A stretch of 64,000 nt of DNA, from NCBI GenBank assembly GCA_921293015.1, contig OV121092.1:34231764-34295763 (forward strand), given 5' to 3'. This DNA is from Phorcus lineatus. Its lineage: Eukaryota > Mollusca > Gastropoda > Trochida > Trochidae. The position numbers and the translations under genes were made by a program. Shown here piece after piece: positions 100 to 44,552 of this stretch (position 1 is the stretch's first letter; each line of letters starts with the position of its first letter). The notes under the pieces are model-generated. The model saw only the letters and a list, made by a program, of their open reading frames with translations, was not told where the DNA came from and searched no databases.

Positions 100-290
100 A
101 TGGAATCAGTAACATCGTCCCGGAAATGGACAACCAGATGGGACACAGATTCCCAAAACAAATTTGTAAACACTTATGTTTCTGTTGAAAAGCCATTCTC
201 AGAGACTGAAACCGAAAGTGACAGCTGTATTACCAGCAAATCCAAAACTCAATACAGAAATAGAAAATCATCAACATCAAAATCATCTTC

Positions 291-354
<64 letters not shown>

Positions 355-3300
355 TCAAGTTCAATATCAAGATCAATTACACGAACATCAAGTTCAAGGT
401 CAAAAGGACTGTCATCAACAAGAAAATTTTGTCGAACATCAAGGTCAAGATCATTGTCAAGAACATGCAGATCAAAATCTATATCATTTCCAAGTAGATC
501 CATTTCAAAGTCAAGATCAAGATCGAGATCAAAATCTTGGCAAATAAGCAGATCAAGGTCAAGATTAAGATCAATTGCACAAAGGGAGCAAAGGTCAATC
601 AGAAGATCAATGTCAAGAAGATCTAGGTCAATGTCAAGAAGAACTTCTAGATCAATTTTGAAAAGATCCGAATCAACTGTGAGAAGATCTAGATCAGTTC
701 TAAGAAGATCTAGATCTAGATCAGTTCTAAGAAGATCTAGATCTACATCAGAAAGAAGAGGATCTAGATCAATGTCAAGAAAATCAAGATCCTCATCAAG
801 AAGAAGAAGAAGATCTAGATCAATATCAAGAAGAAGATCTAGATCAATATCAATAAGAATACAATCTAGATTGATCACTAGAAGAACTCAATCTATTTCA
901 AAAAGCAGATCTACATCAATTTTAAGAAGATCTAGATCTATATCAGCCAGAAGAGGATCTAAGTCAATGTCAAGAGGATTAAGATCCTTATCAGGAAGAA
1001 GATCTAGATCACTATCAAGAAGAATACAATCTAGATCAAGGTCAAGAAGATCTTGCTCGATATCAAGAAGGTCAAGGTCAATATCAAGAAAAAGAAGGTC
1101 AAGATCAAAATCAAGAAGATCAAGATCAATATCAAGAAGATCAAGATCAATATCAAGAAGATTAAGATCAATATCAAGAAGATCAAGATCATTAGCAAGA
1201 AGACAGCGATCATTATCAAGAAGATCATTATCAAGGAAATCATTATCAAGAAGATCATTATCAAGGGCAAGGAGATCTAGATCAATATCAAGAAGAAGGT
1301 CAAGATCAATATCAAGAAGATCAAGATCATTTTCAAAAAGACCAAGATTAATATCAAGAAGATCTAAATCAATATCAAGAAGAATGAGATCTAGATCAAG
1401 GTCAAGTAGATCTCGTTCAAGAGAGAGAATGTCTAGATCAATATTATTAAGAAGATCAAGATCATTATCAAGGAGAAGATATGGATCAGTTTCAAGAAGA
1501 TCATTATCAAAAAGGAGGAGATCGAGATCATTTTCGGGACAACCTAAAGCAATAACAAGAAGATCAAGGTCAATATCAAGAAGATCGAGGTCAATATCAA
1601 GGTCAATATCAATAAGATCAAGGTCAATATCAATAAGATCAAGGTCAATATCAAAAAGATCGAGGTCAATATAAAGAAGATCAAGGTCATTATCAAGACG
1701 ATCAAGGTCAATATCAAGAAGATCAAGGTCAATATCAAGAAGATCAAGGTCAATATCAAGGTCAATATCAAGAAGATCAAGGTCAATATCAAGTTCTTCA
1801 CGTACTTTGGATGTTGATAAAGAGTTATTCCCTTTTGTTGCTGAAGATGATTTGTTCTACTTTAAAAATCTTTTGGTAAGTATTCTTACTTTTAATATGA
1901 GTTAATTACTGTGTTTAAATTTGAGCGTTAGCTTTAGTGAATATTTTGAGGGAAAGATAATTTGTAATTCTATGCACCAAGTTACATTTTTTTTTGACTT
2001 GTGACGCTTAAAATCTAGGTTTGAAACTAATCATGTCATGATGTGCATCATTTAATTTTAATGGACATTTCACTCTCACTTAAATCAAGCCATTGAGTAA
2101 ACACCCAAAAAATCATTGTACAAAAACTACAATTTTCGGAACTGATTGTCACTATGACAACAACCATTGTCACTTGCCATCAAGGCAGCCGTGCCATCAC
2201 TTGACCACTGGCACTCAATAGACGAGACGTCATAATACCACAATGCTCTCAGTCCAACCCACAGTTACGTCAGATGAAAGAGGTAAAACTTTTTAAAATG
2301 TACTATCTTTTTTGCAGGCCTGTCACAACTCAGTGTTGTCATACATGGAGCAAGAGAAGAGGGAACTGATCAGTCTTGTGTTGAAGATAAAGAATGGTCC
2401 GCTGGAAGTTGCCAAGGTGATAGTATCTATCATTATTTTTAATAGTTCAGTTGTAATATTTATTGGCATTCATAAAGGTATTCGTATTTGTAAATTGTCC
2501 TAACTACTGTAGATAACTGAGGGTGGAACATTTGCTTGTTTCTCATTTTCTAAATTTCAAACTCAACCAAAATCTTATAATTTATATTTTTTACACAAAG
2601 AGAAATGGATGGGGTCCTTTCACCTGTGCGTCAAATGCATACCTTTCCATTTTTAGATTTTTTAAAAGTATTTCCAGAAACATTTGACAAATTTTTTCCC
2701 CAAATCAGGTTTTTCTTGTATCTGGGTTTCAAGTAACCTCTCACCAACAGCAGCTTGTAATTTATGCTGTTGAAAGAGAGGTACCACCTCCAAATGCCGC
2801 ATACTTTGCGATCTCAATCACCTTACCTTATTAATAGGCTTTGTTTTTAATCAGATATCAGTAAAGTGTCTTCAAAGACTTGCCCGAAGGATGGATACCT
2901 GCTTACTGCTAAACACACTTCTTCCATTTTTGGAGAGAACTTTTGATGATAATGCAAAAATCAAGATTATGGGATGTTTCGACGCCATCGTGTTTAAACT
3001 GGGACGGGAGATGAAGCCGTATCTACGCCAGGTGTTGGTAGCTCTGAAGGTTAAATCGTATTCTGAAAAAGATACAAGAGGACAAAAACTCTTCTTCCGG
3101 ATCATCAGCAGAATTACAAAGGTATCACTTTTTTAAGTTTTCCATTTTCAGGGTTGACCAGTGAATTGTTGCAATTGAGTCACATATACCAAATTTAATC
3201 AATGTTGTTACTGTTCAGCTTATTGACTCAGTAGATTAAAGTATAAAGTCATATTTGGACTGAAAACCAGACATGCAGCTGCTGGCATGTGACAACACTG

Positions 3301-6300
3301 TTTATTACTCAACTGTTGTGAGATCACTCATTAGATAACAAAGAGTTGGTAACACACATGTGTGATAATGTTATCACATTACCATTTGTTTAGTATTCTC
3401 TATGTAAAGCCCATGCCATGGTGTTTGCACCTGGATTTGAACCCAGGCCTTTAGCGTGAGAAGCCAGTTCTATGAAAAATACAAAAGGTTATAAAAAGAA
3501 CAAATTCTGCAACCATGATATGTTCACAATTGTTTAGCATTCAAAGTTTTGACACTCTGGTACATGCTAGACTATACTCGAAATGCATTTGCTTAACTAA
3601 TGATACAAAGATCAAGACTAAACACTTTATCAAACAGGGAAAGTTATTAGATTAGGGACGCTAAATATTATTTTGTGAGTTCCAAATGTTGTTAGGGGGC
3701 GCTTTTAGGGTGAGAGCACCTATTGCATCGTATATGGTATATATTGTATAAAGCACTATTCCCATTATTCACCTGAAGTGGCCCAGAAATATGTCAAATA
3801 GATAAAGAAGGTTTCCTCCATAATATTGTCATTAATTGATATGAAATAATGTTGGCAGGTGTGTGGTTTTAACAGCATTATAGAAAGTCTGAAGGACGAT
3901 TTGGACATAGTGGATACACACATGAGAGAACTTTCCTGTTCAACCCTTGCTGTCGTCACAGACATTGTAGGATTTGAGAAAATGCTGCCATTTATTCGAT
4001 CACTGATTACTGGGTTGTCTCCCTTACTGAGAAGATCTGGCATTAAGATTCTCCAACTTTCTGTCAGCCAATCAGGAGACAAGGCTAGACCTTTCATTAT
4101 GCAGATTGTGAAATTGCTTGAACCAGGTAAATGTGTTTTTAGCAAAAAAAATTTTTTTTTCTACACAGATCTTTCATGATTTTAGATTTTGAACCTCTGA
4201 TATTAGGTACTCACCTATACTTAAGTCTTTAAAGCAAAATCCCAAAACTGTTTTGCTTGGTTACTAACTTTAAGTATTTAAGCACCTTTGAGTCTTTTAT
4301 CATGAATATATATATATATGATTAATAATAAAAGACTCAAAGGTGCTTAGATATTATACATATATATATATAAACATTTGTTGAAGAAAACCAAGATGAT
4401 TTATTCACAAGTACTTTCGACCATAAGGTCTCATCAGGTGAATGACGTTGAGTCGGTTATTGCAACTTAATATATATGTGGCACCAATTATATTTCTATC
4501 GCTCTTTTTTTAATTAAAGAAGCTAATTCATAACAATTATTCTATGGATAAATTGACAAATTAGAAGTGATATTCTGACCTGACTTGTATTTTGGTTTTA
4601 CAGAGCTGTGTGACACTTCTTCCCCCAAGGGTTCTGATCATGATCTTATCAATGCAATATATGCTGTCGCTGGTATTGCACAGAAAAGTGATGAACAATT
4701 ATTCAAGAGGATTTGGAGTTCACTTCTCTCAATCTACAGTAATCTTTCAAAATTTCAACGTTATCAGGTAAATCAATTATAATTAATAATATATTAAATC
4801 CACCTTTTGATGTTCGAATTAAAGAAAAACTTGTAGGTTGCATAAACAATAAAAAAGTAGTTTAGGTAATGTTAATGGATAAACTGTATCAATCAAATAA
4901 AATCAAACATTTTTTGTTGTATTACAAATAAAAGCCTAATGAAAAATATATCATCAATAAAGGAATAGTGATTGTTCAAACAGTTCATATAATAAATTTT
5001 ATTAAACACTTTATTTACTGCATAAAGATTATTGATTACAATTAATGCCTCTTTGGCAAGCTTATGATGAAAAAATTAGCTGCATTGTCACATCTTATTG
5101 CTAGGAGACAAAAAGGCCTCAACCCTCTTATGTGTTGAAAGTGTGGGTAATTTATCTTTATATCATTCTAAGAATATTCAAAATTCACTTTCAACCAATC
5201 ATATTGGCATCGTTATATTTTGAATTAGATATGACCAACGTAGCTGCGAAAGCAAATTCAGAATTAATTATTTACTTTTCTTTACTGCAAATGAAAAATG
5301 ATAATTGAAACCATCTGAAATTTTCAACACTTAAAATTTCAGAACATCAATAATATACAGAATGCTTTGAGTCGTCTACTAAGATTAAAATCAACACTTA
5401 CTGAAGAAGAACTCCAAAATCTGGAAACTGGCTTAATGGCTGATTGTTCTACCCTGGAAGCTGGTGTGAATGTAAGTACTGCTTCATGATGTAGTGATTC
5501 TGATCAACTTCCACGAAGATGAAAATATTATTATCAAAATACAGAAAGAATGTTTGCACATTAATTTGCATTGTTAATGAGTTTCTCTCCTAGAAAATTT
5601 TTTCAGGGTCCGGGTTCACTGAGATGCGTCTAAGTAAAATTTATCCCGGAACAGTCTGGGCCTCGCACATGAAGGGTTAATACTGAAATTAATTTTTCCC
5701 AGAACCAATGAAACTGAGTAATATGGCTCCTTTGTTACAGAGGTCTACACTGAAAGATACAAATTGAGAAGCTTCTGAGGTGACAGACTATCTAATTTTC
5801 TGTATTTCAAAAGAACCTTAAATGTATGTAGCGCTGATAGTTCAATGTACAGTATCAAATTACATTGCTAAGTTGGTGACTCAAGTTTTTTTCCTTTTCT
5901 TTCAGATGATGTGGATATTAAGTAAATGTAACCTGGTGAGCATTGATCATTACAGCACAAGTTTCCTTCAGCCCTTCATTACCAAGTTCATCACATACCA
6001 GTTGAGCCTTAGTGCACAGCTAGAGGAAAAGGTATTTAACATTGCATTCTTTTGCTACCAAATTTTGAAAATAATAATTCAATTTCTTCAGCAGCCCTTT
6101 ACACTGCCTATTGACATTTGAGTTTAGGTTTAACGGATTTAAATCTTAGTACCATTTTGGGTGAAATTTCTGTACATTTTATCCATTGAAGGAGTTAGTA
6201 GTAGCAGATCAAGAGGTGGTGAAATGGGATTCAAATTCCCCTTTTGGAATTAAAAAAAAGATTTCCATAAAAATGGTGACTTACCCCCATTTCTAACTGA

Positions 6301-7727
6301 TCCACACCCCTTTCCAAAAATTTTGGATTCTGCCATTAGTTGGCGAGGTACTCTGAAAGTCTATGTACTTTCACAATAAAAAAAAGATTCGCACTTCTTT
6401 TGTCAATTTATGAAAATTAGTTTGCCGCGTTGACTTTACTGTTTCTCAAGTGCAACAGAAACTTTGACAGATTCACAAATATATTTCACTAATGGCGTGC
6501 TTTGTACAACTTTTTAAAACCAATTCAAAAATGAGACTCTACCTTTTATTTGTTTAATCATATAAATATGTAATTTTTTCTTGCAGTTCCAGGAAATGTG
6601 TCTGAGATCCTGTAGGAAGGTCACGGCTGAAGGTGTCATCAGATATCTTCTAGCATTATACAAAAACTCCTCCGCACATCAAATACACGTAGCTTCGGAG
6701 ACCATTTCTCACATTTTGCTTCACTATGGAAGCAATCGCCTGTCTTATGATACGGAGAAGGAGATACTGGTGTTATTATGTGGAGCGATTAATCCACTGG
6801 ATCCACTGGTAAGATGAATATTCCTGATTAATGCCATATTCTTAACCCTTTCCCCCCTAAGAAACCAGACCCAAATACTTTAAGAGCCTGAGTTTAGGCT
6901 TGTAGGTGTTCAAAGGTTTTAAAGAGAGGTTTTTCCCCCTAGCTTTGTGTCCATAAATGTAATACGATCTTAATGCAATATTGTTGAGTGGTTACCCTAT
7001 GAAAAATTATATATATAAAGATTAAGATAAAACATTCCTAATTATTGTCACATTCTTAAGTTAGCGTTGCATATAATTGTACTAGATCCTCAGGTTAAAC
7101 ACCCTTATGATAATCACTGGCATTTTCTTCACTTGGCGCCACATGGGAAACAATAAGTATTCAGGATTCTCTGGTTTAGATAAAGAATTATAAATTATCA
7201 TAATCTTCTTCAGTGGCTCAAACATTAAAAACAATAATAATTTAGAATCTCAGGTTTATTTAAAGCAATCCTAATATTCTTAATTATATATATATTAATA
7301 TATAATAATATTTCTTAATAGGCTGGAGGAGGACGTGGCATTATTTTATTTTACAATTTCGAAATTAGTTTTGGGCACCAAAACAAACATTAAAAGTTTA
7401 TGTTAATCACACAAGTTTATGTTATTGGCCAAAACAGAGATTACAACGCATATGTAAGCCTGAAAACCTCAAGAAATATGCTGTCTTATGTTTCAGGCAG
7501 ACAAATCTTTACAGGCTTTGCTGAATGTGATGAAGGCAATTGGAGATCATCTGTGTTTCCATGTCGCAAACATCAATATGTCACTGAATTACGAACCATC
7601 CTCTACAGATCAGCGCCACCTATTGGAACAGATTAACATGTTGCTCAATAGATCTAGCCAATCAGAGCATTCAATGTTGGGACTTGTTACTGATGGGTCT
7701 GTTTTCAACATGAGAGCCTCTGTGTGA
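100..7727 (+). CDS. RS-domain protein with truncated SF3B1-like HEAT repeats (SF3B1 tandem paralogue)
   Basis: Exons read from splice sites: 100-1875, 2318-2416, 2855-3121, 3859-4126, 4604-4767, 5343-5471, 5906-6031, 6587-6808, 7497-7727. The ATG at 100 follows an in-frame TAA at 91. Exon 1 encodes a W-containing start (SRKWTTRWDTD), a poly-Ser run, then RS/RSRS repeats to about residue 580. From VAEDDLFYFKNLL on, every exon aligns with SF3B1 exons 8-16: for example LKIKNG, KMLPFIRSL and SGIKIL match SF3B1 [16 protein letters not shown] and TGIKIV. By eye, identity to SF3B1 is roughly a fifth to a quarter. It ends in the counterpart of SF3B1 exon 16, so the C-terminal HEAT repeats are absent. 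One in-frame TAA (1672-1674) interrupts the RS tract; all else stays open (1093 residues if counted through). Homology is secure. Function is inferred (U2 or pre-mRNA binding), and partial decay is possible. Confidence 0.85.
292..351 (+). repeat. (TCA)20 microsatellite coding poly-serine
   Basis: Twenty uninterrupted TCA triplets lie in the serine frame of the RS gene. The same DNA reads as poly-His in another frame and poly-Asp on the opposite strand, which produces misleading long ORFs. The tract is likely length-variable between individuals. Confidence 0.95.
600..1795 (+). repeat. Degenerate tandem repeat coding the RS domain
   Basis: About 1.2 kb of imperfect units of the type AGAAGATCAAGATCAATATCA (periods of 12 to 24 bp), all in frame and mostly coding RRSRSIS. 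The units at 1560-1795 are most alike, which suggests recent expansion at the 3' end of the tract. The in-frame TAA lies in this more homogeneous part. Confidence 0.85.
1672..1674 (+). other. In-frame TAA inside the RS repeats of exon 1
   Basis: Neighbouring units read TCA-ATA-TCA-AGA-AGA, and here the second TCA is TAA, a single C-to-A difference. The frame stays open for 67 more codons to the exon 1 donor at 1876 and joins the HEAT exons in frame. It could be a true stop, an allele, a read or assembly error in a repeat, or be removed by splicing within the repeat. Confidence 0.9.
3412..3475 (-). repeat. tRNA-like SINE remnant
   Basis: On the minus strand there is a T-arm-like hairpin, CCTGG-GTTCAAAT-CCAGG, with a recognisable polymerase III B box and a possible anticodon-side stretch before it. 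No A box or complete cloverleaf is visible, so this is a SINE fragment rather than a tRNA gene. It sits in intron 3 of the RS gene. Confidence 0.5.
4273..4356. repeat. Inverted repeat, arms of about 25 bp around a TA-rich loop
   Basis: The arm near 4279 (AAGCACCTTTGAGTCTTTTA) recurs as its reverse complement near 4326-4350, separated by a TATATA run and followed by another. It lies just beside the hammerhead-like motif and may belong to the same retroelement relic, or be a very small palindromic MITE. Confidence 0.7.
4403..4443 (-). ncRNA. Candidate minimal type I hammerhead ribozyme
   Basis: On the minus strand the order is ATTCAC (4443-4438), CTGATGA (4437-4431), GACC-TTAT-GGTC (stem II, 4430-4419), GAAA (4418-4415), GTACTT (4414-4409), GTGAAT (4408-4403). 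ATTCAC and GTGAAT pair perfectly as stem I. Stem II is a perfect 4-bp stem with a 4-base loop. AGUACU gives the two-pair or dimer-forming stem III, and CUU fits the NUH cleavage rule. Every conserved hammerhead core base is present. Minimal type I hammerheads of this sort are known in Penelope-like retroelements. No reverse transcriptase is visible nearby, so this is probably a relic terminal fragment in intron 4 of the RS gene. Confidence 0.7.
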
Positions 7728-7990
7728 TGTCAGTGATTATTTCAAAAGAAGCAACCAATCAGAGCGCTTGATGATTCAGTGTAGTTAAGAGTCACTTTTA
7801 TAATAGAAGCAGCCAGTCAGAATTGTTGATTTTGGGACTTGTTACGAGAGCCTCGTTATGATGTCTGTGATTCTTTCAACAGAGGCAGCCAATCATAACG
7901 CTCGATGTAGGGACTTAAATTGCTGGGATGGGTCTGTTCTAAACATTAAAGAGCCACAGTTATGACAAATGATTCAGTGTACTAAAGGGT
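7650..7990 (+). repeat. Imperfect tandem repeat spanning the RS gene's stop codon and 3' UTR
   Basis: Three or four diverged copies share the blocks CCAATCAGAGC, TTGGGACTTGTTAC, GGGTCTGTT and GAGAGCCTC. The first copy lies inside the last coding exon and codes the final 25 or so residues (RSSQSEHSMLGL onward). The rest lie in the 3' UTR. The protein's C-terminal tail is therefore repeat-derived rather than SF3B1-like. Confidence 0.65.
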
Positions 7991-9304
7991 CACCATCCTG
8001 CTCTTGCTCCTTTCTAATATCCTGATCTCTTTTATGGCCAAATTCTTCGAACAACTGGATGACGGCTTAATATTCGTTGCTTAGTTATTATTTCAACCAT
8101 TGGAATGTCGTTATCCATTCGGGTTGTGCCATTGTTGCTGGATGCGAGTCCTCTCATTGGGTGGCAATACGAGGCTCTTGGCTTGAATGAGATCAGGGAA
8201 GGAGCGAGAGCAGATTCATGTACGCTGATGTAGCAGGATGAAGGGTCACATGCAAAATTGTAATTAGTGAATAATATTATTTTAACAAGTTTTAAGAAGT
8301 TTACCATACCATGTTTGCTGAGCTCTTATTTTATGTTTCCAAGGTTTGTATCTTCAGGCGTTTTTAATGAAATGGCTTGCCTTGTTTTTCTGAATATTAA
8401 GTGTAATACTTAAACTTATCTAACTTGCCTTGTTCCTCTCAAATCAATGAGTGGCTGAAATGCTCTTGTTTGTCGGATGCTCAGAAAAAAATACCTGAAC
8501 ATATTTGACTGAATCAATGATGAAACTAACCTCGAAGTTCTAATGCTCAGAAATTTTTTAAAGATTATTGTCAATGCTCAGCTGGTTGTTGTAGGGCTCA
8601 GGTAACTATCACTGAAATGTGTGGATAGTTTAATCATATTTTTATTCATGCAAGAATCTGGTAAGGCAAACAAGCAAAGCTTTGCTTTTATGAATACCTC
8701 ACCTGTACAAAACATAATATGCAGAGTTCACAAGAACATGACTAAATGATATGTGCGGGTACAAAACTATGTGTATGTGGTATTTCATTATCTAAGTAAC
8801 CAACCAATGAACATCAAGAATCACTAAAGAGCTCATGTGCGGATATAAAAAATATATCCTTGGATAATATCAAAATGAATCTCATTATTTTTGACAAAAA
8901 AATATTTGATTGTCTAATTTTAGTCAACTTGTCTATGACTGCATGGTCCCAGTTGCAATTCTGTTTTAAAGAATAATGATAATAAAGCATCTGTGTTAAA
9001 CCTGGACTGGTAAATGAGAATACTGGTCAGGTTATTTGTGAATCATGCTACGTTTTTACAGGTGATCAAAAAGATATGCCTTTGTTATGTGATATTCAAA
9101 CTTTTGAAAATTCATGTCTGAATGTTTTGCTGTTAAATGCAGTTGATATTTTAGTGTTGTTACTTCATTTGAAATGTTGGCTCATTCGTGTGATATTTTA
9201 TATGATGTTAAGATTATATTTGTTGTTTAAAATTAATTTTTACTAGATTTCTACATGTATATTTGCAATACTTCTCATGTAGAATATGTCATTTTGGGAA
9301 AAGT

Positions 9305-9310
9305 AATAAA
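9305..9310 (+). promoter_or_regulatory. Likely polyadenylation signal of the RS gene
   Basis: An AATAAA lies 1.58 kb past the stop, before a T-rich and GT-rich stretch. A second AATAAA at 8991-8996 would give a shorter 3' UTR. No other gene intervenes between the stop at 7727 and here. Confidence 0.45.
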
Positions 9311-9499
9311 CATTTTTTATTCATGATGTATTTGTTATTTCTTTCTGGTGGTTAGGAAGAACACCAATCACATTACACGACATGGTTTAAATACAAAATG
9401 AATTCTTATCACCACATGTCGGAAATACTGTTTCATTTAGAAAGTAAATTGTTGACAAGCTTATATACACCACCCTATATATATGGGATTCAATTGATA

Positions 9500-9600
9500 A
9501 GGATTTTGAGATCACCTCCAACTCGATTCGAACCAGGGAGCTCACACTTTAGAGTCAAACACTCTACCGATTTAGTTGAAGATATATCGCTCTGGGTCAA
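9500..9600 (-). repeat. tRNA-derived SINE head
   Basis: The minus strand reads a tRNA-like head with an A-box-like GGTAGAGTGTTTGACTC and a B box GGTTCGAATC at the expected spacing. No clean acceptor stem is visible, so it is scored as a SINE rather than a tRNA gene. Confidence 0.55.
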
Positions 9601-11121
9601 TATCAGTTAAGGGATACATTTAACCTCACTCTCTCACATTCACAATGGTTACGACTATACTTGTTTATCATGGCCTTAGTTCCCAGACAATATATCCTGA
9701 TTCCAGTTTTTTACGGCGAGACGCTATATCAATTGGAAGTATTGCTGAGGAAGCTGCAAGACGTTTATCATCATGATATAACCTGGTTGCGATACAATAC
9801 CAATCCTGATGCTTTTAAAAAGCAGAATAAATATCACATAAAAAATACCAACCTGTCATAAACTGTCATACATTAATGAAAGCAATAAAATCAAAGAGAC
9901 TGTGAGTTTGTGGATAAAGTATCAGAGATATATATTTTCTGTTTGACTAATCTCTGTTCATGTCTAAAATAGAATAAAAACTTAACTTTGTCAGTTTATA
10001 AAAATTATTTGTTTTTAAACAAATTTGGTAAATAGATATTGGAATATATTGTCTCTTGTGGTGATGCATCGATGTATCATGGACACTAAGGATATATATA
10101 ATGTACATATTTTCTAAGAGTGTTTTGCATTGATCGTGTAGCAGACGATGCATTTAACATTCAATACTATCGATAATTCGTTACACCACAACTTACAACA
10201 ATACAATTTTACTATTGTGGCTGAGTCCTGGCTTCTGATAGAGGAAAGATGATTAAAGCTGAAAAAGTAATATTCAAACTGAAAGAAATCAATTTCTTTT
10301 ATAATTTCAATTACACAAAAAAGTCTGTAATTGAAATTAATCATAACAATGATATTATGAAAATGTATATAGCTCGGATAATTTGTTGCCAGATTTGATT
10401 TTATCATCTTACAAGTATTGAAATAAACATAATTGATTTTATGATGATACAAATCATATTTATAACCAAAGGCTTTAATGCAATTGATGTATTTGTTTAA
10501 TTACAGGTAGCCTAATGAAATTTTGAAATAAACTCTTATATTGAAATAAAAGGAAAGTTTTTGTATCTTGATTTAAGATAATGATGAAAGTTATGCAAAT
10601 GTATTATTTCACTTTTACTTTACTTTAAAAATCTAAAGAGTTTTAGTATTTTGTTTCAGAGAAAATAACTTAAATAATAACCGTTCAAAGTATGCATGCT
10701 TTTTTTAATTCCACAAATCAAGAATATTTGGATATGAAATAAAAAAATTATTTTAATGTATCCGTGTAATCAACTATAAAAATAATATGATATATTTCTT
10801 TTATAAATATGTGGCCCTCATTTGTTTTTTCTTGTGGCAAGGCAAAAGAGAGGTATAATCCTTAAAATTATATATTAATTCATTTGTAAAACGGTACTAA
10901 AACCCTAAAACATATTTATTCATAATCATTCGTTTTCGAGGAAACTAAAATAAATACTTGGAAAATGTCATTTGATTTCTTATATATATATTTATATTTA
11001 CAACAGTTATTCGATTATTCATATTTCGGGAATAACATAATTCCTATTTTGTTACTTTCCATATTTTGATTTCCGGTTCGAAACTGCATTGTGGGAAACA
11101 GATCGTCGGCCATATGCAAGG
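9601..11121. other. Intergenic DNA and SF3B1 promoter/5' UTR
   Basis: AT-rich DNA with only short chance ORFs. The last 70 bases before the SF3B1 ATG are less AT-rich and hold an ETS-like TTCCGG and a TGTGGGAAA-type motif. This is the likely promoter and 5' UTR. No TATA box is evident. Confidence 0.5.
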
Positions 11122-14100
11122 ATGGCTGCCACAACAAGAGAAGGTAAACTATTTTGAAATCGCAAACTGGGGACGCTGGTATCTTAACGCAATGTTAATA
11201 AATTCAAATCTTTAGATTCCAATGCCTACGAAAACTAAATTGTCAGCACATTAAAGCGAATACTTATTGAACATCATAATCTTTAAATTTGAAGTCAAAC
11301 ACATTTTCTTTTTATCACGTTTTGTTTTCATACGTTTTACCTACGCTGCTGATTCTATGCTGTGCCTTAAACAAATTAGATAATCAAAACCCACGTATAT
11401 TTATATATTTTTGAGAAGTTGTTTCTATTCGAATCGTTCGCTCAAAGAGCTTATGGAGACTGCGTTTTAGATCATGTCAATTTCGTTCCTATTTTTCAAG
11501 CCCTCAGGTTCCTAACACTTGATAAATTCAATATATACTGTAGAGGTCATTTTTTGACGGTAGGCCGCAACCATGGTTACGTTTGTGGGTCGAATTTAAA
11601 TATTTGGTAAACTTTAATCACTGAAATAATCATTACATTACATAAATAATAATAATCGAGTTTTATGCTTGACATTGTGCTAGTCTAATGATTATAAACT
11701 GCAACACCAACCCTTACACTAGACAAGCTAACCCTATATATAAGCTATAGCAATGTATTTAAACATGTTTTCTATTATCAAACTGTTGTTACCATGTGAA
11801 AATCAAATGTTATCTGCATCTGTACTTGTACTATAGGCCTAATGGCCCGAAATACTGAATAAACTGAATCTGAAATCTAACCCTATTGTACAGGGAAGCA
11901 AAGGTTAAAAAGATTGTCTACAAATATTTCAGGGCTAATGAAGACAATCAAGAGAATCTTACGTTAAACAAAATAGTATGAAATGAACACAATCTTTGTG
12001 TGACAGGATTAATGCAGTCCAGCCAATAATAATGATAAACTAATGATTAATCTTTATTGTCTGGAATACATTGCCAGGGATTGGGAAAGGCAGGGGCCAT
12101 GGGCCATTTTGCACATTGGATGAAAAAATGGCCCATTCAAATTTGAAATTTTACCATTGCTTCTAAGGGGAATGGCCCATTCAAAATTCTGAAAATGACT
12201 AAAAGTTCTATAAATGGCCCATTATCAAAGGTGTCTTTCCCAATCCCTGCATTGCACATTGGAATTTAAATTTTATTTTGCACAGCAGCCACAGTTAAAG
12301 TGTATCATGATCATTAGCAAAAATCTACAGTGGTTGAAATATTTCAGCATGAGAGTTGTGATATATTTCCTTGATTGTATTCCAATTTGAAATAGAACAT
12401 ATTCATATCCAATTTGATTATGTATTTCAGAGATAGAGGAGCAAGTGCGAAATATCCAGGCAAAGACAGCTCAACTGGTTGAAGTCAGGGATGATGGAGA
12501 AAGAGTTGGTCTTGGAGCTGAGGGTCATTATGATGTCGACATTTATGACTCCAACAAATTTGCCGGATACGTGACATCAATTGCGGCTACAGATGAACCA
12601 GATGTAAGACAGCTTTATTGACATTCCTTTAAAACTATTATAATAAACCCCATACAAGTGTTTTGGATGAATTTCATAAGTTTTTGTTTACAAAATTCTC
12701 AATTCATATGATTAATTTAAATGGAAATATGTGTAATAATGCATTTGATAACAAATGAACTTGGTAAGTCTTCAGTAACTTGATTAGCTTATTCTCAATT
12801 AAATCTTTGTAATTAAAATAAACTTGTTGTAATTTCTCTTTTCAGGATTTTGAAGATGTAGGGCCAGCTTTCCCTAAAAGATCGAGCTACACAGCACCGT
12901 TGAACTTACTCCATGAAACTGCAAATGACAAGGTACACTAATGTTGTGATTGTTTCAATTCATATCTTATAGTTTAATCGTAATTGATCATTTTAGATAG
13001 TAAATTGCTTTTACAATATTGTCAGTAGTAAGTATTGAAAAATATCAACTCTTCCAGTGCAAAGCTAAACTATGTCGTTTGAGTTTATGGAATTCTTTCA
13101 AGTTCTTTAAATATGTTTAAGGATTTTGATCCTTTGGCTGATCACCGAGTGCCAAAGATCGCCGACAGAGAAACTGAATACCAGGCAAGAAGACGTCAGA
13201 TGATAATATCACCAGAGAGATATGATCCATTCGCAGACGGTTAGTATATATCTCTCGTCATGACTCTTTGTTTATTTTTGTTAAATATTGTTTTTATTCT
13301 GACAATGAATGAGAGATGATACCATAATATGATCTGATGCCACGAGCAACCGCAGATTGATCAATTCTAAATTGTTGTGATACATTCAGTTTTGGGAAAG
13401 GGTTTGTTTTGGAAAAGGTTATTATTTACTTATAATGTTTAAGTTGTAATCATTTCATCTTAATGTAAATGTTTCCTTTACTGATTATTATGGTATCATC
13501 TGTTTTGACTGCACTGTCGTGTAACTTGAGCATTTGATTGTAAAAAGGACAATTGTTGCTAAGAGGCTAAATGGATGTGGAAATGTGTTGAAAAGGTTTT
13601 CCAGCAATGTTTTTGAATTGAGTTAAAATGAAATTCTATCAGAATTGGTAGTTCTGAAGGGGTAATGAGAAAAAAGAAGAAAAAACCATGTTGATTATAA
13701 ACCCTAAAACAATCAAAACTTGTCAAGAGTTGTTAAACATTGATCTGAACGTCATAAGAGATTGTCAAAAGTTTGAAGATCAGGGGGAACAAGAAAGATT
13801 AATTAATTGATTATTACAGTTTTTAATCCTATTCAAACTTCAAGAAGAAAATGCAAAAACAATCAAATATCTTACCCAGGAGATGTTGAGAAAAGTGATT
13901 CGTTTATAATCACTATTTCTAAACAAGACAAGTTTGTGTTGACAGTTTGCATTCCAACAAATTGAAATTGGTTTGGAATGTCTAAAGCATTGAAGAATGT
14001 GACTGCAGAGTATGAAAGGAATGAAATGGGAGTCGTGAAAGTGAGATCAGTAAATGAAAGATGAGTTCTTGGTTTCTGGTTACATAGGGATGTCATTGGA

Positions 14101-17100
14101 CTCTTATTGAGTTACCCAAAAAGCCAATCCGAGACTAATGTCAACTATTTTCCTTTCTAGCTTCCATTGAGGACATTGGCCACGCACCCGACAACTATGT
14201 TTGATATTTGTTCAAGCTGTAAATAAACTGGCATATATATCATTGCAAAATTACTCATATCTGAATTTTAAATCATTATTGCCAGATTTGAAGAAAAATT
14301 GTTTTTATGGTTTCAATACTAAGTGTGTAATATGATTGATAATGTATGTCTTAAACACTGTAATTTATGCTATTTGCATGCTAAATCTGAGGTTTATGAG
14401 AGACTATTCATGTTCTGAATGATGTTTAGATTGTGTGAGTGGTGGTACACAACTACACTAATCTGAGACTAATTTTAGGATTTGTGAAGTCTGAGTATAT
14501 CTCAGGGCGGATTTGCGGCGAGATCGGGACTTGAAGACCAAGGTGTACGTATACATTGCCACTGTGCAAACATAGTGAGGCAATCAGACACCAACTTGTG
14601 GGTATTTGGTCAACAATCCTTTCCTAACTACAGTCTCAAGAAAGTCAAGTATTCTCCGAGCTCTCTAAGCAATTACAGAATCCCTAAATGTTGCAATATT
14701 GTGAGTCATCACCAGGAAAAAATTACATTACAAGTACTACCTTTGTAATTAATCTTATAAAAGAATCCATGAAATGTGGTATTCAATGAATGAAGATGAC
14801 ATTACTAAAAAGAAAGTCATTCCTTGTGTTTCTGTTGTTGATTAGAGTTAAGATTTTCAGTGACTGATCAATGGCAATTTACAATCTTTAAAAGGAAAAA
14901 CTGACCTCGATAGTCTGAAGTTGATCTCTGATTGCATCCCCCAAGGACTACATTTCATCCGTGGTGAAGTTAAAATGGTCAGGTGAGATGCCACATGTAT
15001 AGTAGGGATGGAAATAGAGTATCTGGAAATGTATAAATCAAAATTGGAGTCCTCTCCATTCGTCCAATTTGGGCAAACCTTGAAGCTCTTCTACACATTT
15101 GGCATGAAATGTGACCGACAGAATATTTGGAAGTGAAAAGGAGAAAGAAAGAGTATAATACATTAAGCCTGTTAACCTCAGAGCTGTCTGTCATATTCAG
15201 ACAATAAATTTTGGAGGAAACAATAACTTTTGATGGCTACTAGATGGAACATGTCCCCCATGATGAGTTGCAGATAAAGGGAGGTGATTTCCAGATTCTC
15301 TATGTCCGGTGTAGTTCTTGGGTCATTGCAGATTAGGAGAGATAATCTGTCAAACTCGAATCATTTTCCCTGATATTATTGTCTATTTAATCTGTCACGG
15401 CTTGTGTCGTGACACCTCTGCTTTATTTTGTAGGCGGCAAGACACCAGATCCCAAACTTCAAGCTCGAACATTCTCCGATGTTATGACAGAGGTGCATCT
15501 CAGCAAAGAACAGGTCAGCTGTGGAAACTTTGAATCATTTAAAAGACAAAACTGTTACATATGTTAATACAACTATTTGTCAATCTGAAAATTTAAATCG
15601 GGTATACCGATCCTTTCTGTGTGGCGAATTTGCTGAAATATTGCCCAAGTATGTTCAACACTAACTCACACGCGCATGTATTATCATGCAGTAATTTCTA
15701 TTGTCATATATTGACTGTACAGATTTTGATGTCAAGGCTGCTACAAACATTTTAACATCTCTAAATCTATCTCAAACAGCTATTTAATCTTGTTATGTTT
15801 TATCAAGCATATAAAATTTTGACACAAGTAATGTCTAAATTGAGAAATATAGAGATAAATCTAAGTAAAATATGACTTTTCTTCAGGCTGGGTTGCGTCA
15901 ACAAATGCACGAGAAGGCTAAGGCCGGAGAACTGAGATCAAACGGGGCTGGGGGAGATGCAGGACACAAACAACCAACTAAACGAAAGAGATGGGACCAG
16001 TCAGCTGCTCAGGATGATGCTCCTACCAAGAAGAAAGCATCGTCATGGGATGCTGCCGAAGCTGTGACTCCCTCTAACAGTCGATGGGACGAGACCCCTG
16101 GAAGAGCTAAGGGAGAGCAGACCCCTGGTGCTACCCCAGGACAGAGCACCAGACAGTGGGATTCCACCCCTGGACATGCTACACCAGGAGCTGCTACCCC
16201 AGGTCGAGATACCCCTGGACATCAGGGCACACCCAGTGCCAGGAGAAACAGATGGGACGAGACCCCAAAGACTGAGAGAGGTAGAGCTTTTGTATCATTT
16301 GATACATATTTAGTTTTGTTGATTGAACCTGAGTTCTGATCAGTAGTATTTTGAGTCTCTGAATCTTGTACATTAGAAATGAAAATGGTTCACATTGCAA
16401 AGTTAATGTCTTACTGGTAATAATTTAGATGCCCTTTTGACTAGTATCCAAATGAATACTATCTTTCCCTATGAATTCTGATGTAGCTAAATGTTAATTT
16501 CAGAAACACCTGGTCACGGCAGCGGATGGGCAGAAACCCCTCGCACAGACCGCGGTGGCGATCTGATAGAGACCACACCTACTCCAGGGGCAAGTAAACG
16601 CAGATCCCGCTGGGACGAAACTCCTGGAGCCACACCAGGTGGAATGACACCATCCATGACCCCTGGCGGAATGACGCCAAGTATGACCCCTGGAGGTCAA
16701 ACCCCTAACATGACCCCTGGTGGAATGACCCCATCAGGACAAACGCCTGGAGGTATGACACCTGGTGGTTTTACCCCAGGAGGAACTACCCCGACCGGTC
16801 AGAAAGCCATGGCAATGGCGACACCCACCCCTGGTCACCTCATGTCGATGACCCCAGAACAGTTGCAGGCGTATACATGGCAGAGAGAAATCGATGAGCG
16901 GAACAGGCCACTCTCTGATGATGAGCTGGACGGAATGTTCCCACCTGGATACAAGGTCAGTGTCTATAATATAGTTAATATCGGGGTTGTTGCTAGAAAA
17001 AAAATTCCTCATTTACCAATTATGTGTTTGTTATGATACCTCAGATGATTCTCTATCAAGTATATTTTGATGTGTGGAAGGAAACATCAAAGCAGACACA

Positions 17101-20100
17101 ATTAAAATATGTGTGACATTTGAATTTCTATTTGAAAGTAAAACATTTATTTCTCAATGCAGGTCTTTTTATTCAAAATATTTTTCCTATTTCATATGTA
17201 ACTGAATCTTTTCATGATCCATTTTGACAGGTCCTACAACCTCCAGCAGGGTACATCCCAATCAGAACCCCGGCAAGAAAGCTCATAGCCACGCCCACTC
17301 CTATTGCTGGCACCCCCGGGTTCCGCATGCAGACCCCTGACACTAAGACCCAGATCGTTGACATGCAGCCGAAGGGGAACCTGCCAATGATGAAACCGGA
17401 TGATATGCAGTACTTCGACAAACTGCTGGTGAGGACAGCTTTCATATTTTGTATGATGGAGAAATTTTAATCAAATCCTCTGCATCATAACTTTTGGATA
17501 TTTTAACTTTATTAAAGAAATATATGGATTTTATAAAAAAAACTCACTACCTATTAGCCACCTGTTTAGCTGCAAAAGATATCAAGAAGGAAGACCTTAA
17601 TGAAACATCTTGGTTGTCGGACTGCAATATTTTTCGCTCTAAAGCCAGATGTCATTCTATAAACCTGTTCTTATGTTTGAGGTCCCATTTGTCACTTTTA
17701 AGGAGACTTGTTGCATGTTTCTATAAGATCTTAAACTGGGCGATTAATTTGCAGGTTGATGTGGACGAGGAGTCTCTGTCCCCAGAGGAACAGAAAGAGA
17801 GGAAGATCATGAAGCTCCTACTCAAGATCAAGAATGGAACCCCTCCCATGAGGAAGGTAAGATAATGGCCAGATACTGAAAAACGGTTTTTGAAAGTTTG
17901 AAGTTTCAGAATGTATTTTGTTGACATCTGATTAAATTTAATCATGTTCCAGTGTTTTATCTTGAAATGTAATCAATTTTGTCCAGTTAATGTGTGAGAA
18001 AACCTGTTTCTAATTATATATATTTTTTTGTAGTTCAGCTTCCTTTCCTGTATAAGTTAACAGTTAATTAGTTAAGATTGTAAAATTATTATTCTGAAAA
18101 ATGATCTGTTTATTCATTGCTGACAGTAATGAAATTATTTTGAAAAATTCATAGCTTCTGAAGTCCAGGTTATTAATAACAAATTAATTAGATCCTATAG
18201 TTTATGAGTAAATTGACAAAGATAAAATAAAAATTTGTCAGTAAAAAGGAATGTCTATTGTCTTTCTGCATATTAAATGGAAAAATTAACACAACACTTA
18301 CATTCTTCTTGTTATGTGCAGGCTGCTCTGAGACAGATCACAGATAAAGCTCGAGAGTTTGGCGCAGGTCCTCTGTTCAACCAGATCCTCCCTCTACTTA
18401 TGTCCCCGACCCTCGAGGATCAGGAGCGCCATCTGTTGGTGAAGGTTATCGACAGGATCCTCTACAAACTGGACGATCTGGTCCGACCCTACGTACACAA
18501 GATCCTTGTGGTTATTGAACCCCTGCTTATTGATGAAGACTACTATGCTCGTGTTGAGGGCAGAGAAATCATCTCAAACTTGGCAAAGGTGAGAAATGAA
18601 TATTGTCAATTTTGTTGCCATCCTATTTGATGAGGATGTTCATTTCGAATACATATGATAGAGATAAACCTGTGTTGTTCCAGTGTAGCATTAACTTTTT
18701 GTGCTTTTGAATCTTTGGCTTTGAAGCTATGGCCTATATATATTTAAAAGCCTTGAATATAAGGTACTTTGAGTGTGTCTAAGTCAAATGTCAAAGTATA
18801 AGAAAAAGGCTTTAGGAAATGCCAGTCTGGATAAAAAATTAACCAGGGCTGTCATAAGGGTTGTATTGGATTGACAATTTGTCCAACAATACACAATGAT
18901 GACCAATCTTTATTTTTGTTGCATCACATCTATTCAGTAGCTCACTTGTTGGCTTTCTATTGTGAAAATATCAGTGCATAATTAGTATATATATTATTGA
19001 GGAAGATTCTCTGTTGTAACATGTGTGATCATTTCTGTCTGCAGGCTGCTGGCCTGGCTACCATGATCTCCACCATGAGACCTGACATTGACAACATGGA
19101 TGAGTACGTCCGTAACACAACAGCTCGGGCATTTGCCGTCGTAGCTTCTGCACTGGGTATTCCATCTCTCCTACCCTTCTTAAAGGCTGTTTGTAAAAGC
19201 AAGAAGTCGTGGCAGGCTCGGCATACAGGTATCAAGATTGTACAGCAGATTGCTATCCTCATGGGCTGTGCTATTCTCCCTCATCTCAAGAATCTGGTCG
19301 AGATTATCGAACATGGTGAGTTACATTGGAAAAACTGAGCTATTAATTTTCTGTGTTGAAATACCATCTTTTGTAATAGCAGTAATTAAAAGATCTTTTG
19401 AAAGATTAGAAATGACATAGAATATGATTCTCAAGGCATTTGAAATGTGCTTTTATCTTATTTACTTGCAAATGTGTAGGCAAGTAAGTTATTTTTTGCC
19501 TTTGAGATAGTGTTTATTTTTTTAAAACATGAATAATGAATAGATTTTATTCACTAAAAAATGTATGCATTTATTTTATATAATGTCATAAATATTTTAT
19601 CAAAGTTATTGATGTTGTGTTACAGGTTTGGTTGATGAACAACAGAAAGTGCGTACAATCACTGCCCTGGCGCTGGCTGCGTTAGCTGAAGCAGCCACTC
19701 CATATGGTATCGAGTCCTTTGACAGTGTGCTCAAACCTCTCTGGAAGGGTATCAGGCAACACAGAGGAAAGGTGTGGCTTTATGACTTATTTCTTGCATT
19801 GAAATAAATATTGTTATAAATCAGGAATTGGGTAAAAAAAAAAGTCAATGCTTTAAGTTTTACCCTTAATCATATTCCTCTAGGGTTTTGAATCTACTGT
19901 TTCTTCCTTTGTGTTTTCCCAAATAATAACTTATAGTATGTACACTGCATCCTTGCCATGTTAACTCTTCTATGCTCTTGTGCAGGGTTTGGCTGCGTTC
20001 TTGAAGGCGATTGGTTACTTGATCCCGTTGATGGATGCAGAGTATGCCAACTACTATACAAGGGAAGTGATGTTGATCCTAATCAGAGAGTTCCAGTCTC

Positions 20101-23100
20101 CTGATGAGGAGATGAAGAAGATTGTTCTCAAGGTTAGTGGTAATGACTTAGTCACGACAGCTATACCAATTTCAAACTCATTCTTTGGTAATGCAGGTTT
20201 AAGTTGAGTTGTGTGTTTTCAGGAAATGACATTAAGCATTGGTTACTTTGTAGATGCTGTTAAAAATGGTTACCCAATATAGTTTTGTCTTCATAGAACC
20301 ATATTTTTAGCTCCTCTACTGGCTAATTGATAGTTTAGTTATAGCTTTCATTAGCCACTTGAAGAACCTTGATTTTTAAGATAGGAAAACATTTATGGTT
20401 TGCTCTGATACATTCAGCTAGTAAACGGTTAAATTAAATCTTTTACAAACCCTTGCTGATACTGTTGTACGGCTAATTTCCACGTATTGTCCATTCTGCA
20501 GGTGGTGAAGCAGTGCTGTGCTACTGATGGTGTGGAACCCCAGTACATCAAGGACGAGATTCTACCCGCTTTCTTCAAACACTTCTGGAACCAGAGGATG
20601 GCTCTTGACAGAAGGAACTACAGACAGGTGCGTAGCTCTTACACAATCAGTTAGATAGTAGATATATGTCAGATGACAGATAACTCTCCTTATAAAGTCT
20701 TCCATTGAAGTTTGGATCTAAGTTATAACTCTCCTTTAAAAGTCAAGTTGAGTGCAACAAGTCTCGTTGCTTGGCTAATGAAAGCCTTGTTGCATTTCTT
20801 CAAGTGTGTGCAAGCTCTATACATCTTGTTTACATCTTGTTGCTGATAAGGGTAATGCACTCAAACCAAGGTTGGAGGGACAATGGATCAAGGTTTTAAT
20901 GAGCTAGTGATGAAGATGGTTGATAGTTTTGGCTTATAAGGAAGATTTCAATGACCTTGATCAGACCTTACGCTCTCAGCTTGTCAAGACTTTGAGGAAA
21001 TGTCTTGAATTATTCTTGATCTAGTTCAATTTTTCATATCATATCCCCTCTTATTTCAGCTGGTGGACACAACAGTTGAGATTGCTAACAAAGTAGGAGC
21101 AGCAGAGATTGTGGGTCGAGTGGTGGACGATCTCAAGGACGAGGCTGAACAGTACAGGAAAATGGTGATGGAGACGATTGAGAAGATAATGTCTAACCTA
21201 GGAGCGGCTGACATCGACTCACGTCTTGAGGAGCAGTTGATTGATGGTATCCTGTATGCCTTCCAGGAACAGACCACAGAGGTGAGCAAAATGTTTCTTT
21301 CTTGTAGTGGTATGAAATCTGTAAAATTTGCTCCAAGCTTGCAATTTTTTCTTGTTGAGTTTGGAAAATGTTTATTGATGAATATATATACAACAACCTG
21401 AGAAAGCCACTGAGGTTAGAAAATCTTCATTCAGACAATTTGGCTTTGCCAAGAGGTAAAAAATTTATATCATCTTGTTATTTACCTTTTCTGTTTCATG
21501 AGATGAGACAAGCATGGTCAAGAAAGGACAAATAATTAATTAATTTTATCATTTAATCGTAATTTTATGCATTTACATGAGTGGGCCCCTGAAAGTGCCA
21601 TTTACGTAAGTAACGACATGATGTAAGAAGCAATGTTTTGTGATAATAGGTCATTGCTGTTCTAGTGACTGATAACATGTTCCAATGTCTTTTCATTCGT
21701 GACTGACAACAGGGTTAATTTCACTGTTAGGTCACTGTATTTCACCGGCAGTCATATAATTGATCTTGTTTACAATGTTATTAAACAGTATTTTATTTCT
21801 AAAACATTCGCATCCAAAGTTCAGGAACTGTAACAGTGCTACTTTGCTAAGATATCAGAAGAATTGATAGTAAATTTTGGTTACTATATATTTTCTCATT
21901 TAATCACCTGTTCCAAGATTCTTTATTATAACTGCAACCTTTTATAACCTGTCTTCCAGGACGTTGTGATGTTGAATGGGTTTGGTACAGTTGTGAACGC
22001 ACTGGGCAAGCGGGTGAAGCCCTATTTACCCCAGATCTGTGGTACAATCCTCTGGCGTCTCAACAACAAGTCTGCAAAAGTGCGACAGCAGGCGGCCGAT
22101 TTGATCTCAAGAATTGCTATTGTCATGAAGACATGTCAAGAGGTAGGGCTAAAAAAGATTAGTGATGTTGCAACATTTTGCTGCTGTAATTCTTTAATCA
22201 GTTGACTGCAAGCTATCCACACATTAGTTCCTGTTCTCCCCCTCTGTAAATTGAAAACAAACAAAAACATTTAATTTTAATCTCTTGATTTAAAACCCGC
22301 AGAAATTAAGATTAAATTAACAAATCTCAATATCATTATACACATGATTTGAAATAACTTTGGTCAAAATGTTTTGATGTGTAATTAGAACATTCACTTT
22401 ATTTTAGTCTGTATACTAGAAATGATTGCAAACTTTCCACCCTGAAACTCATTTTTGATTGACAAATCTTGTTTATCGTCATGCTTTCAATTGAAATTAA
22501 CTTGTGTTTGCAGGAGAAATTGATGGGTCATTTGGGAGTTGTGTTGTATGAGTACCTTGGAGAAGAGTACCCTGAAGTTCTTGGTTCCATCCTGGGAGCT
22601 CTGAAGGGCATCGTCAACGTCATCGGCATGACCAAGATGACACCACCAATCAAAGATCTGTTGCCTCGACTCACGCCCATCTTGAAGAACAGGCACGAGA
22701 AGGTTCAGGAGAATTGTATTGATCTGGTTGGACGTATCGCTGACCGTGGAGCAGAGTTTGTTGCTGCCAGAGAGTGGATGAGAATATGCTTTGAGCTCCT
22801 CGAGTTGTTGAAAGCTCACAAGAAGGCCATCAGAAGAGCCACTGTCAACACATTTGGTTATATTGCCAAGGCCATTGGGTAAATTTTCATTTTGACAGAT
22901 ATGGTTATCATCTCATTAACTTCTTTTTCTTCTTTAAAAAATCTGTTATCCTGAATTGTAGGGGCTCAAGTCAAACTTCAGTTAAAAACGAGTGCCTCAC
23001 AAAACTGAATCATTAAGTTGACTGAACAAGAGGATTCATGTTGATTGAAGCTTTTGCAACAAACACAAAGTCCCTTTTTTAAAGAGAAAATATTTTGTTT

Positions 23101-24639
23101 TTGAGTCTTCTTTTGTAACTTCGGAATTTAAAGAAGTCCATAAAAATCTCATGTAATGATATCAGCCAAGTAAAGATTTATGTTCTTCTTGATTATTACT
23201 TTAAAGCTGAACTGTCCCCTTTCACTGACACTTCCTATGATAAAATTTACTTAACCCAGTGGTTCACTTTATTCCATGTATTCAAGACTGGTGTCATAAT
23301 GACCTGTTTTGCTTTTTTCAGACCACATGATGTGTTGGCGACCCTACTAAACAATCTGAAAGTTCAGGAGAGACAGAACAGAGTCTGCACAACGGTAGCC
23401 ATAGCTATTGTGGCAGAAACATGTTCTCCTTTCACTGTGCTGCCTGCTCTGATGAATGAATACAGAGTCCCTGAACTGAATGTACAGAATGGTGTCCTCA
23501 AGTCTCTCTCTTTCATGTTTGAGTACATCGGAGAGATGGGCAAGGATTATATCTACGCCGTCTCACCCCTCTTTGAAGATGCACTTATGGACAGGTAGGT
23601 CATTTTTAAAAAAAAGAATTTGGTTTAAATTTGAAAGCGTCGTAATTTATTAACTGAATTGCCACAATATAAGATCGTTACAATGATCTATCAAAGTATG
23701 ATTCTTATTTGCTATTGATATACGAAAATGTTCCTGAATTTAGTTAGTCTCGAAGAATGGTCTGTCTGGTATATCATCACTTGTATGCATATTATCTTTT
23801 ATGTAATGTTGGTCAAAAGCAGTCACTATTTTTCTGTTGAACTGGGTCACGTTCAACCCTAGTTACATGAAACGACGTACTCAACCTCGTTCTCGTCTGA
23901 TATTTAACTGTAACACATGATATATCTCCATGTCAAACTCGCAGACACATGGTAACCTTTATGTATGAATTGATCATTAAACTCATTTTCCCTTCCAGAG
24001 ATTTAGTTCACAGACAGACTTCAATGGCTGCTATTCAGCACATGGCTCTTGGAGTGTATGGGTTTGGTTGTGAGGACGCTCTCACTCATCTCCTTAACTA
24101 TGTGTGGCCTAACATCTTCGAGACGTCGCCACATGTGGTTCAGGCATTCATGGGAGCTGTCGAGGGGCTTAGGGTAGCGATTGGACCATCGAAAATACTG
24201 CAATATGCGATGCAGGTACGTATCAGTTTAATTATGTAATAGTGTTCATGAATATATATGTTTGATGGGGTTTCATTGAATTTCTAAGAAGAAAACTAGC
24301 GTTATTCACCAAAATTTGATGCTTTTAGATATCAATTTTGATTCTTTCACCCGTAGCGTTGCTTGTTCCATATGAATCAAATCTGTTTACTTATAAGGAA
24401 TAGGGTTTTTTTTCAAAATGAAATCTTATCATAAATTTGTCTTTTAACAAGATAATGATTCATTCCATCACTCTTTTCAGGGCTTATTCCATCCTGCACG
24501 AAAGGTTCGGGACGTTTACTGGAAGGTTTACAACACAGTGTATATCGGAGCACAAGACGGGATGATTCCAGCGTATCCGCGCATACCAAACGATGCTAAG
24601 AATCAGTACATCAGATACGAGCTTGACTACATCTTGTAG
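11122..24639 (+). CDS. SF3B1: Splicing factor 3B subunit 1 (SF3b155)
   Basis: Coding exons: 11122-11143, 12431-12603, 12846-12932, 13122-13239, 15434-15513, 15887-16280, 16504-16955, 17231-17428, 17755-17856, 18322-18588, 19045-19315, 19626-19771, 19986-20132, 20502-20627, 21060-21281, 21960-22142, 22514-22878, 23322-23594, 23999-24215, 24481-24639. They join in frame to 1333 residues (human protein 1304). SF3B1 is the scaffold of the U2 snRNP SF3b complex and contacts the branch-point helix in the nucleus. Seen: RWDQ/RWDETP ligand motifs and TPG repeats in the N-terminal third (UHM-partner and phosphorylation region), then near-invariant HEAT repeats ending [10 protein letters not shown]. 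Human hotspot residues E622, R625, H662, K666 and K700 are conserved; K700 is codon 19646-19648 (residue 729 here). A longer GGMTPSMTP-type run (16620-16790) accounts for much of the extra length. No defects seen. Confidence 0.98.
12075..12249. repeat. Non-autonomous DNA transposon (MITE), CAGGG ends
   Basis: A 175-bp element with perfect 15-bp terminal inverted repeats (CAGGGATTGGGAAAG) and CATTGC directly outside both ends, a possible 6-bp target duplication. Internally it repeats ATGGCCCATT several times. It sits in SF3B1 intron 1. A diverged copy lies in a CIR1 intron. Confidence 0.8.
13240..15433 (+). other. SF3B1 intron 4, the longest intron of the gene
   Basis: At 2.2 kb it is well above the other introns (0.14 to 1.3 kb). 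It contains less AT-rich stretches at about 14480-14660 and 14980-15200 with no long ORF, and a small GTCACG/CGTGAC hairpin at 15395-15415. No mobile element is recognised. It could house a non-coding regulatory exon. Confidence 0.35.
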
Positions 24640-44460: not shown

Positions 44461-44552
44461 ATTACCTTCTGAATTTCTTATTACCTTCTGAATTTCTTAT
44501 TACCTTCTGAATTTCTTATTACCTTCTGAATTTCTTATTACCTTCTGAATTT
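44461..44552. repeat. 19-bp tandem repeat, 4.8 copies
   Basis: Unit ATTACCTTCTGAATTTCTT, repeated without a single mismatch. Identity between copies points to recent expansion. It lies about 700 bp downstream of the minus-strand gene's stop codon, possibly beyond its 3' UTR. Confidence 0.95.

Follow-up and report, generated by a model that had tools for sequence, protein, structure and literature searches.

The locus examined here raises the question of whether a gene lying directly upstream of SF3B1 in the gastropod Phorcus lineatus could be a second, much altered copy of SF3B1 fused to an arginine/serine-rich (RS) domain, and, if so, what its product would do. The stretch of DNA analyzed (hereafter the window) comprises 64,000 nucleotides (nt) of contig OV121092.1 (assembly GCA_921293015.1, positions 34,231,764 to 34,295,763 of the forward strand). 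It contains a canonical SF3B1 gene at 11122..24639 on the plus strand, which has 20 exons encoding 1333 amino acids and is open throughout. The start of this gene is 3.4 kb downstream of a nine-exon gene model that runs in the same direction (100..7727, plus strand), which we refer to as the copy and of which the canonical gene is the presumed sister. Judged from its sequence, the copy is a real, far-diverged and partial paralogue of SF3B1 that carries an RS fusion.

The model comprises 1,093 codons plus a final stop, and each of its introns has GT-AG ends; exon borders were set by hand, with the reading frame and SF3B1 as guides. Exon 1 (100..1875; KELFPFVAEDDLFYFKNLL) consists of 113 N-terminal codons that include a serine run and, near the start, one RWD motif, followed by an RS tract (codons 114–568) and a tail that resembles part of SF3B1 exon 8. 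In agreement with the initial annotation, which had described an RS tract in frame apart from one stop, exon 1 is open from the ATG at position 100 except for a TAA at 1672..1674 (codon 525, within the RS tract), which is preceded by 524 codons. The tract holds 164 serines and 163 arginines (327 of 455 codons, 72%), with 92 RS and 84 SR dipeptides, and so lies above the threshold of at least 70% S + R for the RS domain of an SR-related protein, the value used in a survey of such proteins (PMC9479744). Exons 2–9 are in frame with GT-AG borders and are free of stops until the TGA at 7725..7727. When the HEAT part that they encode was compared with PDB chains using phmmer, it matched human SF3B1 (6en4_C, E = 4.6e-37, 131 bits, query residues 8–435) and yeast Hsh155 (5gm6_G, E = 1.2e-23, 87 bits), and 118 of 508 residues aligned with the neighbouring SF3B1 were identical (23%), bearing out the earlier claim that these exons align to SF3B1. 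The human match, taken together with the intron positions given below, places the copy among proteins with SF3B1-family HEAT repeats.

A joint transcript of the RS exon and the HEAT exons is still only predicted, and RS open frames can come from repeats, so the two parts could in principle be separate genes, an RS-rich one made up of exon 1 and a HEAT gene that starts elsewhere, never joined to one another. The junction between them speaks against this. Over its final 18 residues (1822..1875), exon 1 gives an ungapped alignment with the final 18 of SF3B1 exon 8, with 7 identities (10 of 21 in the exon-by-exon comparison), and both exons end at the same phase-0 intron. The score of this alignment was reached by 5 of 200,000 shuffles and by none of the 1,096 other open plus-strand 18-mers that precede a GT in the window. 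Because SF3B1-like residues thus continue inside the RS exon up to a shared phase-0 intron, homology crosses the junction of exons 1 and 2, and the acceptor of intron 1 is strong (score 15.6). We regard two separate genes as highly improbable, and the RS exon can be taken to belong with the HEAT exons.

The introns extend this correspondence along the rest of the copy. Six of the eight fall at the identical homologous residue and in the same phase, while the remaining two, in a stretch that aligns poorly, keep their order and phase; three of the eight exon pairs are identical in length (267, 126 and 222 nt). Exon 2 (2318..2416) pairs with SF3B1 exon 9 (99 versus 102 nt, 13/33 residues identical), exon 3 (2855..3121) with exon 10 (267 nt in both, 23/88), exon 4 (3859..4126) with exon 11 (268 versus 271 nt, 24/89) and exon 5 (4604..4767), more weakly, with exon 12 (164 versus 146 nt, 10/46). 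Order and phase alone place exon 6 (5343..5471) opposite SF3B1 exon 13 (129 versus 147 nt, 7/39); exon 7 (5906..6031) stands opposite exon 14 by order, phase and an equal length of 126 nt (5/42), and exon 9 (7497..7727, including the TGA) opposite exon 16 by order and phase (231 nt with the stop versus 183 nt, 9/61), whereas exon 8 (6587..6808) pairs with exon 15 (222 nt in both, 11/74). Exon 8 modelled alone had an all-helical predicted structure, of low confidence (predicted local distance difference test score, 58). Exon 9 ends in a novel C-terminal tail, overlapped by a degenerate CCAATCA...GGGACTT-type repeat at 7658, 7755 and 7889 (within 7650..7960), and the tail may derive from repeat or intron sequence.

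An origin as a retrocopy is ruled out by the eight introns, six of which are at exactly homologous positions. The copy reads instead as a tandem duplicate, made at the DNA level, of SF3B1 exons 8–16, placed upstream of SF3B1 and in the same direction, and we hold the duplication and RS fusion together with high confidence. The proposal in the initial annotation of an RS/SF3B1 fusion paralogue adjoining SF3B1 is therefore well supported, both by homology through the junction of exons 1 and 2 and by the shared intron positions.

The copy has nonetheless moved a long way from its neighbour. Against human and yeast, the corresponding segment of canonical SF3B1 scored 1,077 and 571 bits, compared with 131 and 87 for the copy, indicating that the copy has left the canonical constraint; it would have diverged very far, either fast or long ago. 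Divergence is uneven over 1822..7727, with the exon 1 tail and exons 2–4 clearly SF3B1-like and exons 5–7 and 9 almost unrecognizable. Despite this, the HEAT exons contain no stop in the 501 codons before the final one, and the probability of 502 stop-free codons at the base composition of the introns is about 9e-18, a value somewhat too small given that the borders were chosen by hand. Identities between the copy and SF3B1 numbered 176, 263 and 145 of 493 at codon positions 1, 2 and 3, respectively, in an amino-acid-based alignment that favours positions 1 and 2. The copy evolved under protein-level selection. Protein searches, in which some 8,000 candidates sharing most words with the query were scored each time, matched no relative even when the canonical SF3B1 segment was part of the query alignment, and this negative is uninformative with regard to orthologues.

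A comparable question arises for the RS tract, where an open frame might be a trivial product of the repeat. We counted one-step variants of the two commonest codons of the tract, TCA (n = 64) and AGA (n = 59), leaving ATA, a consensus codon in its own right, out of the AGA count; 71 of these 123 variants (37 TCA, 34 AGA) differ at codon position 3. Stops would be expected among the TCA and AGA variants 14.2 and 7.4 times at equal rates (kappa 1), 10.7 and 5.4 times at kappa 2, and 7.1 and 3.5 times at kappa 4. The numbers observed were 1 and 0, that is, a total of 1 in 123 against expectations of 21.6, 16.0 and 10.6, in a test that counts related, non-independent repeat units as separate events. 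With unique 15-nt contexts (57 TCA, 51 AGA), P lay between 1e-5 and 0.0099 (TCA) and between 0.0011 and 0.045 (AGA). One reverse frame of the tract is also nearly open, with 1 stop, yet none of the 63 single changes of its consensus unit creates a stop, compared with 8 of 63 in the RS frame, so that openness is trivial in the reverse frame and not in the forward one; we accordingly rejected chance repetition as the cause. We infer that the RS frame was protected against stops for most of its history, which would make the lone TAA a recent change, an allele, or an error.

The non-independence of the repeat units is one of several points that weigh against reading the copy as an intact gene. Taken literally, the TAA at 1672..1674 truncates the protein within the RS tract, before all of the HEAT exons, and eight exon junctions follow it. 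Splice sites are weaker than in the neighbouring SF3B1, with donors scoring -0.1 to 9.5 (versus 3.5 to 12.2) and acceptors -1.2 to 15.6 (versus 3.4 to 15.9), on a matrix that was trained on SF3B1 and favours it. Exons 6, 7 and 9 are nearly without residue similarity to their counterparts (alignment scores of -16, 2 and -17), hence the use of order, phase and, for exon 7, length in pairing them. Pfam reported four families for the HEAT part, all short of their cutoffs; neither SF3B1 nor HEAT was among them, and the best was Vps53_N (23.4 versus 26 bits). Finally, among 20 SF3B1 positions, comprising mutation hotspots and others, 2 are retained (R625 and K666, both in exon 4), 14 are changed, and 4 fall in a gap or beyond the copy; positions are given in human numbering, which is the numbering of the window SF3B1 minus 29, an offset supported by ungapped alignment. 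The position of Lys700, in exon 5, has been lost, as it aligns to a proline with a lysine one residue further on, in an exon that is weakly aligned. Lys700 of SF3B1 has been described as fully conserved across metazoans (PMC8785561).

The main and serious rival explanation is that a once functional RS/SF3B1 paralogue was recently broken and is now a young unitary pseudogene, in which the HEAT part is lost to the TAA and the message would be degraded. Besides the stop itself, the weak donors of introns 3 and 7 (-0.1 and 1.3) and the weak acceptor of intron 2 (-1.2) fit such a history, and splicing offers no good escape: an intron within exon 1 that removes the stop is unlikely, as none of the 452 in-frame donor/acceptor pairs that span it (at least 30 nt apart) attains the lowest site scores of SF3B1. 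By the weakest site scores of the copy's own introns, however, 25 of the 452 pairs would qualify (best acceptor at 1761, score -1.0), though we still consider excision of the stop by a weak internal intron unlikely. The TAA is also the only disabling lesion in 1,093 codons, with none in the 501 HEAT codons, and all introns keep GT-AG ends, albeit with hand-set borders. Moreover, the repeat unit that bears the stop is a single substitution away from a unit present in four exact copies, and in such an array the TAA could possibly reflect an assembly error or an allele. We think that a young pseudogene is a substantial possibility that falls short of being probable. If the stop were instead part of a working gene, the product could be a short RS-only protein, with the HEAT exons left as a relic or used in a second isoform. 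The 524-codon frame before the stop and the selection on the RS tract are compatible with this, but the HEAT exons stayed open despite their extreme divergence, and a stop followed by many exon junctions predicts message decay, which the eight junctions past codon 525 would invite. Function through the RS part alone thus seems very unlikely.

We also considered which parts of SF3B1 the copy lacks. At the 5′ end, a tblastn search with SF3B1 gave no match in 100..1820, no counterparts of SF3B1 exons 1–7 were found in the window, in which only 99 bases lie upstream of the ATG at position 100, and the first 50 residues of the copy aligned to SF3B1 residues 1–485 no better than chance, since 1,085 of 2,000 shuffles scored equally high. 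The RWD near the start of exon 1 resembles a U2AF ligand motif (ULM), of which R-W is the core (PMC6633205). With the alignment no better than shuffles, the idea that the N-terminus of the copy derives from that of SF3B1 was set aside and survives as a weak lead only. At the 3′ end, no counterparts of SF3B1 exons 17–20 were found in 7728..11121, a moderate negative, given that the open reading frame (ORF) search used for it recovered only 3 of the 8 HEAT exons already known. Beyond position 7727, the ORF that best matched SF3B1 residues 997–1333 did so at chance level (9014..9118, E = 8.4).

The branch-adenosine pocket of SF3B1 lies in its C-terminal HEATs, and to judge from the predicted exons the copy probably lacks it. 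This seeming absence favours a decoy or regulator over a substitute for SF3B1. Another reading is that the copy encodes not a decoy but a working subunit akin to SF3B1, confined to certain tissues such as the germline, in an alternative U2 small nuclear ribonucleoprotein (snRNP). The recognizable N-terminal HEAT blocks and the equivalents of R625 and K666 could be cited for such a role; against it stand the loss of the K700 position and the failure, in a search of limited sensitivity, to find exons 17–20 in 7728..11121. We consider an alternative subunit unlikely.

The sequence of events that we propose begins with a tandem duplication of SF3B1 at the DNA level in which introns were kept. In the upstream copy, one large RS exon would have replaced N-terminal exons 1–7 and most of exon 8, everything past the counterpart of exon 16 would have been left out, and far divergence under protein-level selection would have followed. 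In the product, an RS tract of about 455 residues would be followed by the N-terminal half of the SF3B1 HEAT solenoid, and the branch-adenosine pocket would be missing. The RS tract would likely be phosphorylated and targeted to speckles, joining the SR network, while the half-solenoid would compete for, or hold, binders of the N-terminal HEAT face, such as DDX42, DDX46 and SUGP1, or the pre-mRNA that follows the branch site. In published work, residues 630–828 of SF3B1, the counterpart of which the copy retains, accommodate downstream pre-mRNA and the N-plug of DDX42, the acidic loop of DDX46 overlaps this site, and the pocket for the branch adenosine is made up of SF3B1 and PHF5A (PMC11482624). 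The likeliest role for the product would be that of a decoy or regulator working beside SF3B1, not of its substitute, and the suggestion in the initial annotation that the protein might bring RS contacts to U2 snRNP, or compete with SF3B1, would fit the domain content. Expression, localization, partners and direction of effect are all conjectural here. Taken as a whole, a tandem SF3B1 duplicate whose RS-fused HEAT half acts as a decoy or regulator is the best explanation that we have and about as likely as not, and the rivals discussed above overlap with it in part. The decoy mechanism taken separately is tentative and somewhat doubtful. More doubtful still is the fullest version, in which an RS domain joined to half of the SF3B1 clamp would form a working splicing regulator that occupies downstream pre-mRNA or the partners of the N-terminal HEATs but is unable to bind the branch adenosine, and that thereby adjusts the choice of branch site in particular tissues or lineages as a natural dominant modulator of SF3B1.

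Known proteins offer partial parallels. The copy shares with SF3B1/Hsh155 the N-terminal HEAT blocks and intron positions, and sits in tandem beside SF3B1, but it has an RS tract where SF3B1 has a ULM-bearing, threonine/proline (TP)-rich N-terminus, it lacks K700 and any C-terminal HEATs that we could find, and it is only 23% identical to its neighbour. With SR-related proteins, which have an RS domain without the canonical SR layout, it has such a domain in common; its partner domain, however, is the HEAT half of SF3B1, and Pfam gave no RNA-binding family. The N-terminal RRM of a canonical SR protein was likewise absent by Pfam, which reported no family for the part of exon 1 that precedes the stop, and for the HEAT part only families below cutoff. 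As far as its main text goes, the survey of SR-related proteins does not contain the word SF3B1 (PMC9479744). Like DDX46/Prp5 and U2AF2, the copy would encode a factor of the branch-site pathway that has an RS tract at its N-terminus, a comparison of how the proteins might work only; Pfam reported neither a helicase nor an RRM family in the copy. In U2AF2 the RS domain is N-terminal. DDX46 likewise carries an RS domain at its N-terminus (PMC11482624). A cephalopod gene cluster includes a splicing factor 3B subunit (PMC9023564). Among the listed PMC papers that name SF3B1 along with its paralogues, gene copies, a duplication or RS domains, judged mostly on titles and abstract openings, no title or opening described an RS-bearing SF3B1 paralogue.

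Elsewhere in the window, an unrelated second low-complexity ORF of 444 codons (37551..38885, plus strand) is RS/SE-rich and then runs into RRDERD repeats; it had no Pfam match at E 0.01 and perhaps encodes another splicing or nuclear factor. An exon-like ORF at 28222..28479 (minus strand) matched the oxidoreductase NAD-binding family (PF00175, 22.1 versus a cutoff of 22 bits) and is possibly OXNAD1-like. Two tandem repeats were present, a perfect 19-bp repeat in 4.8 copies at 44461..44552 and a satellite-like 106-bp repeat in 3.3 copies at 61005..61356. Scans of the window with Rfam (at gathering scores) and for tRNAs returned no matches.

If expressed, the copy would constitute a natural experiment in which the N-terminal HEAT face of SF3B1 has been parted from the branch-adenosine pocket and furnished with an RS domain. 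Such a gene would allow tests of how the choice of branch site depends on RS contacts and on the surface that binds DDX42, DDX46 and SUGP1.

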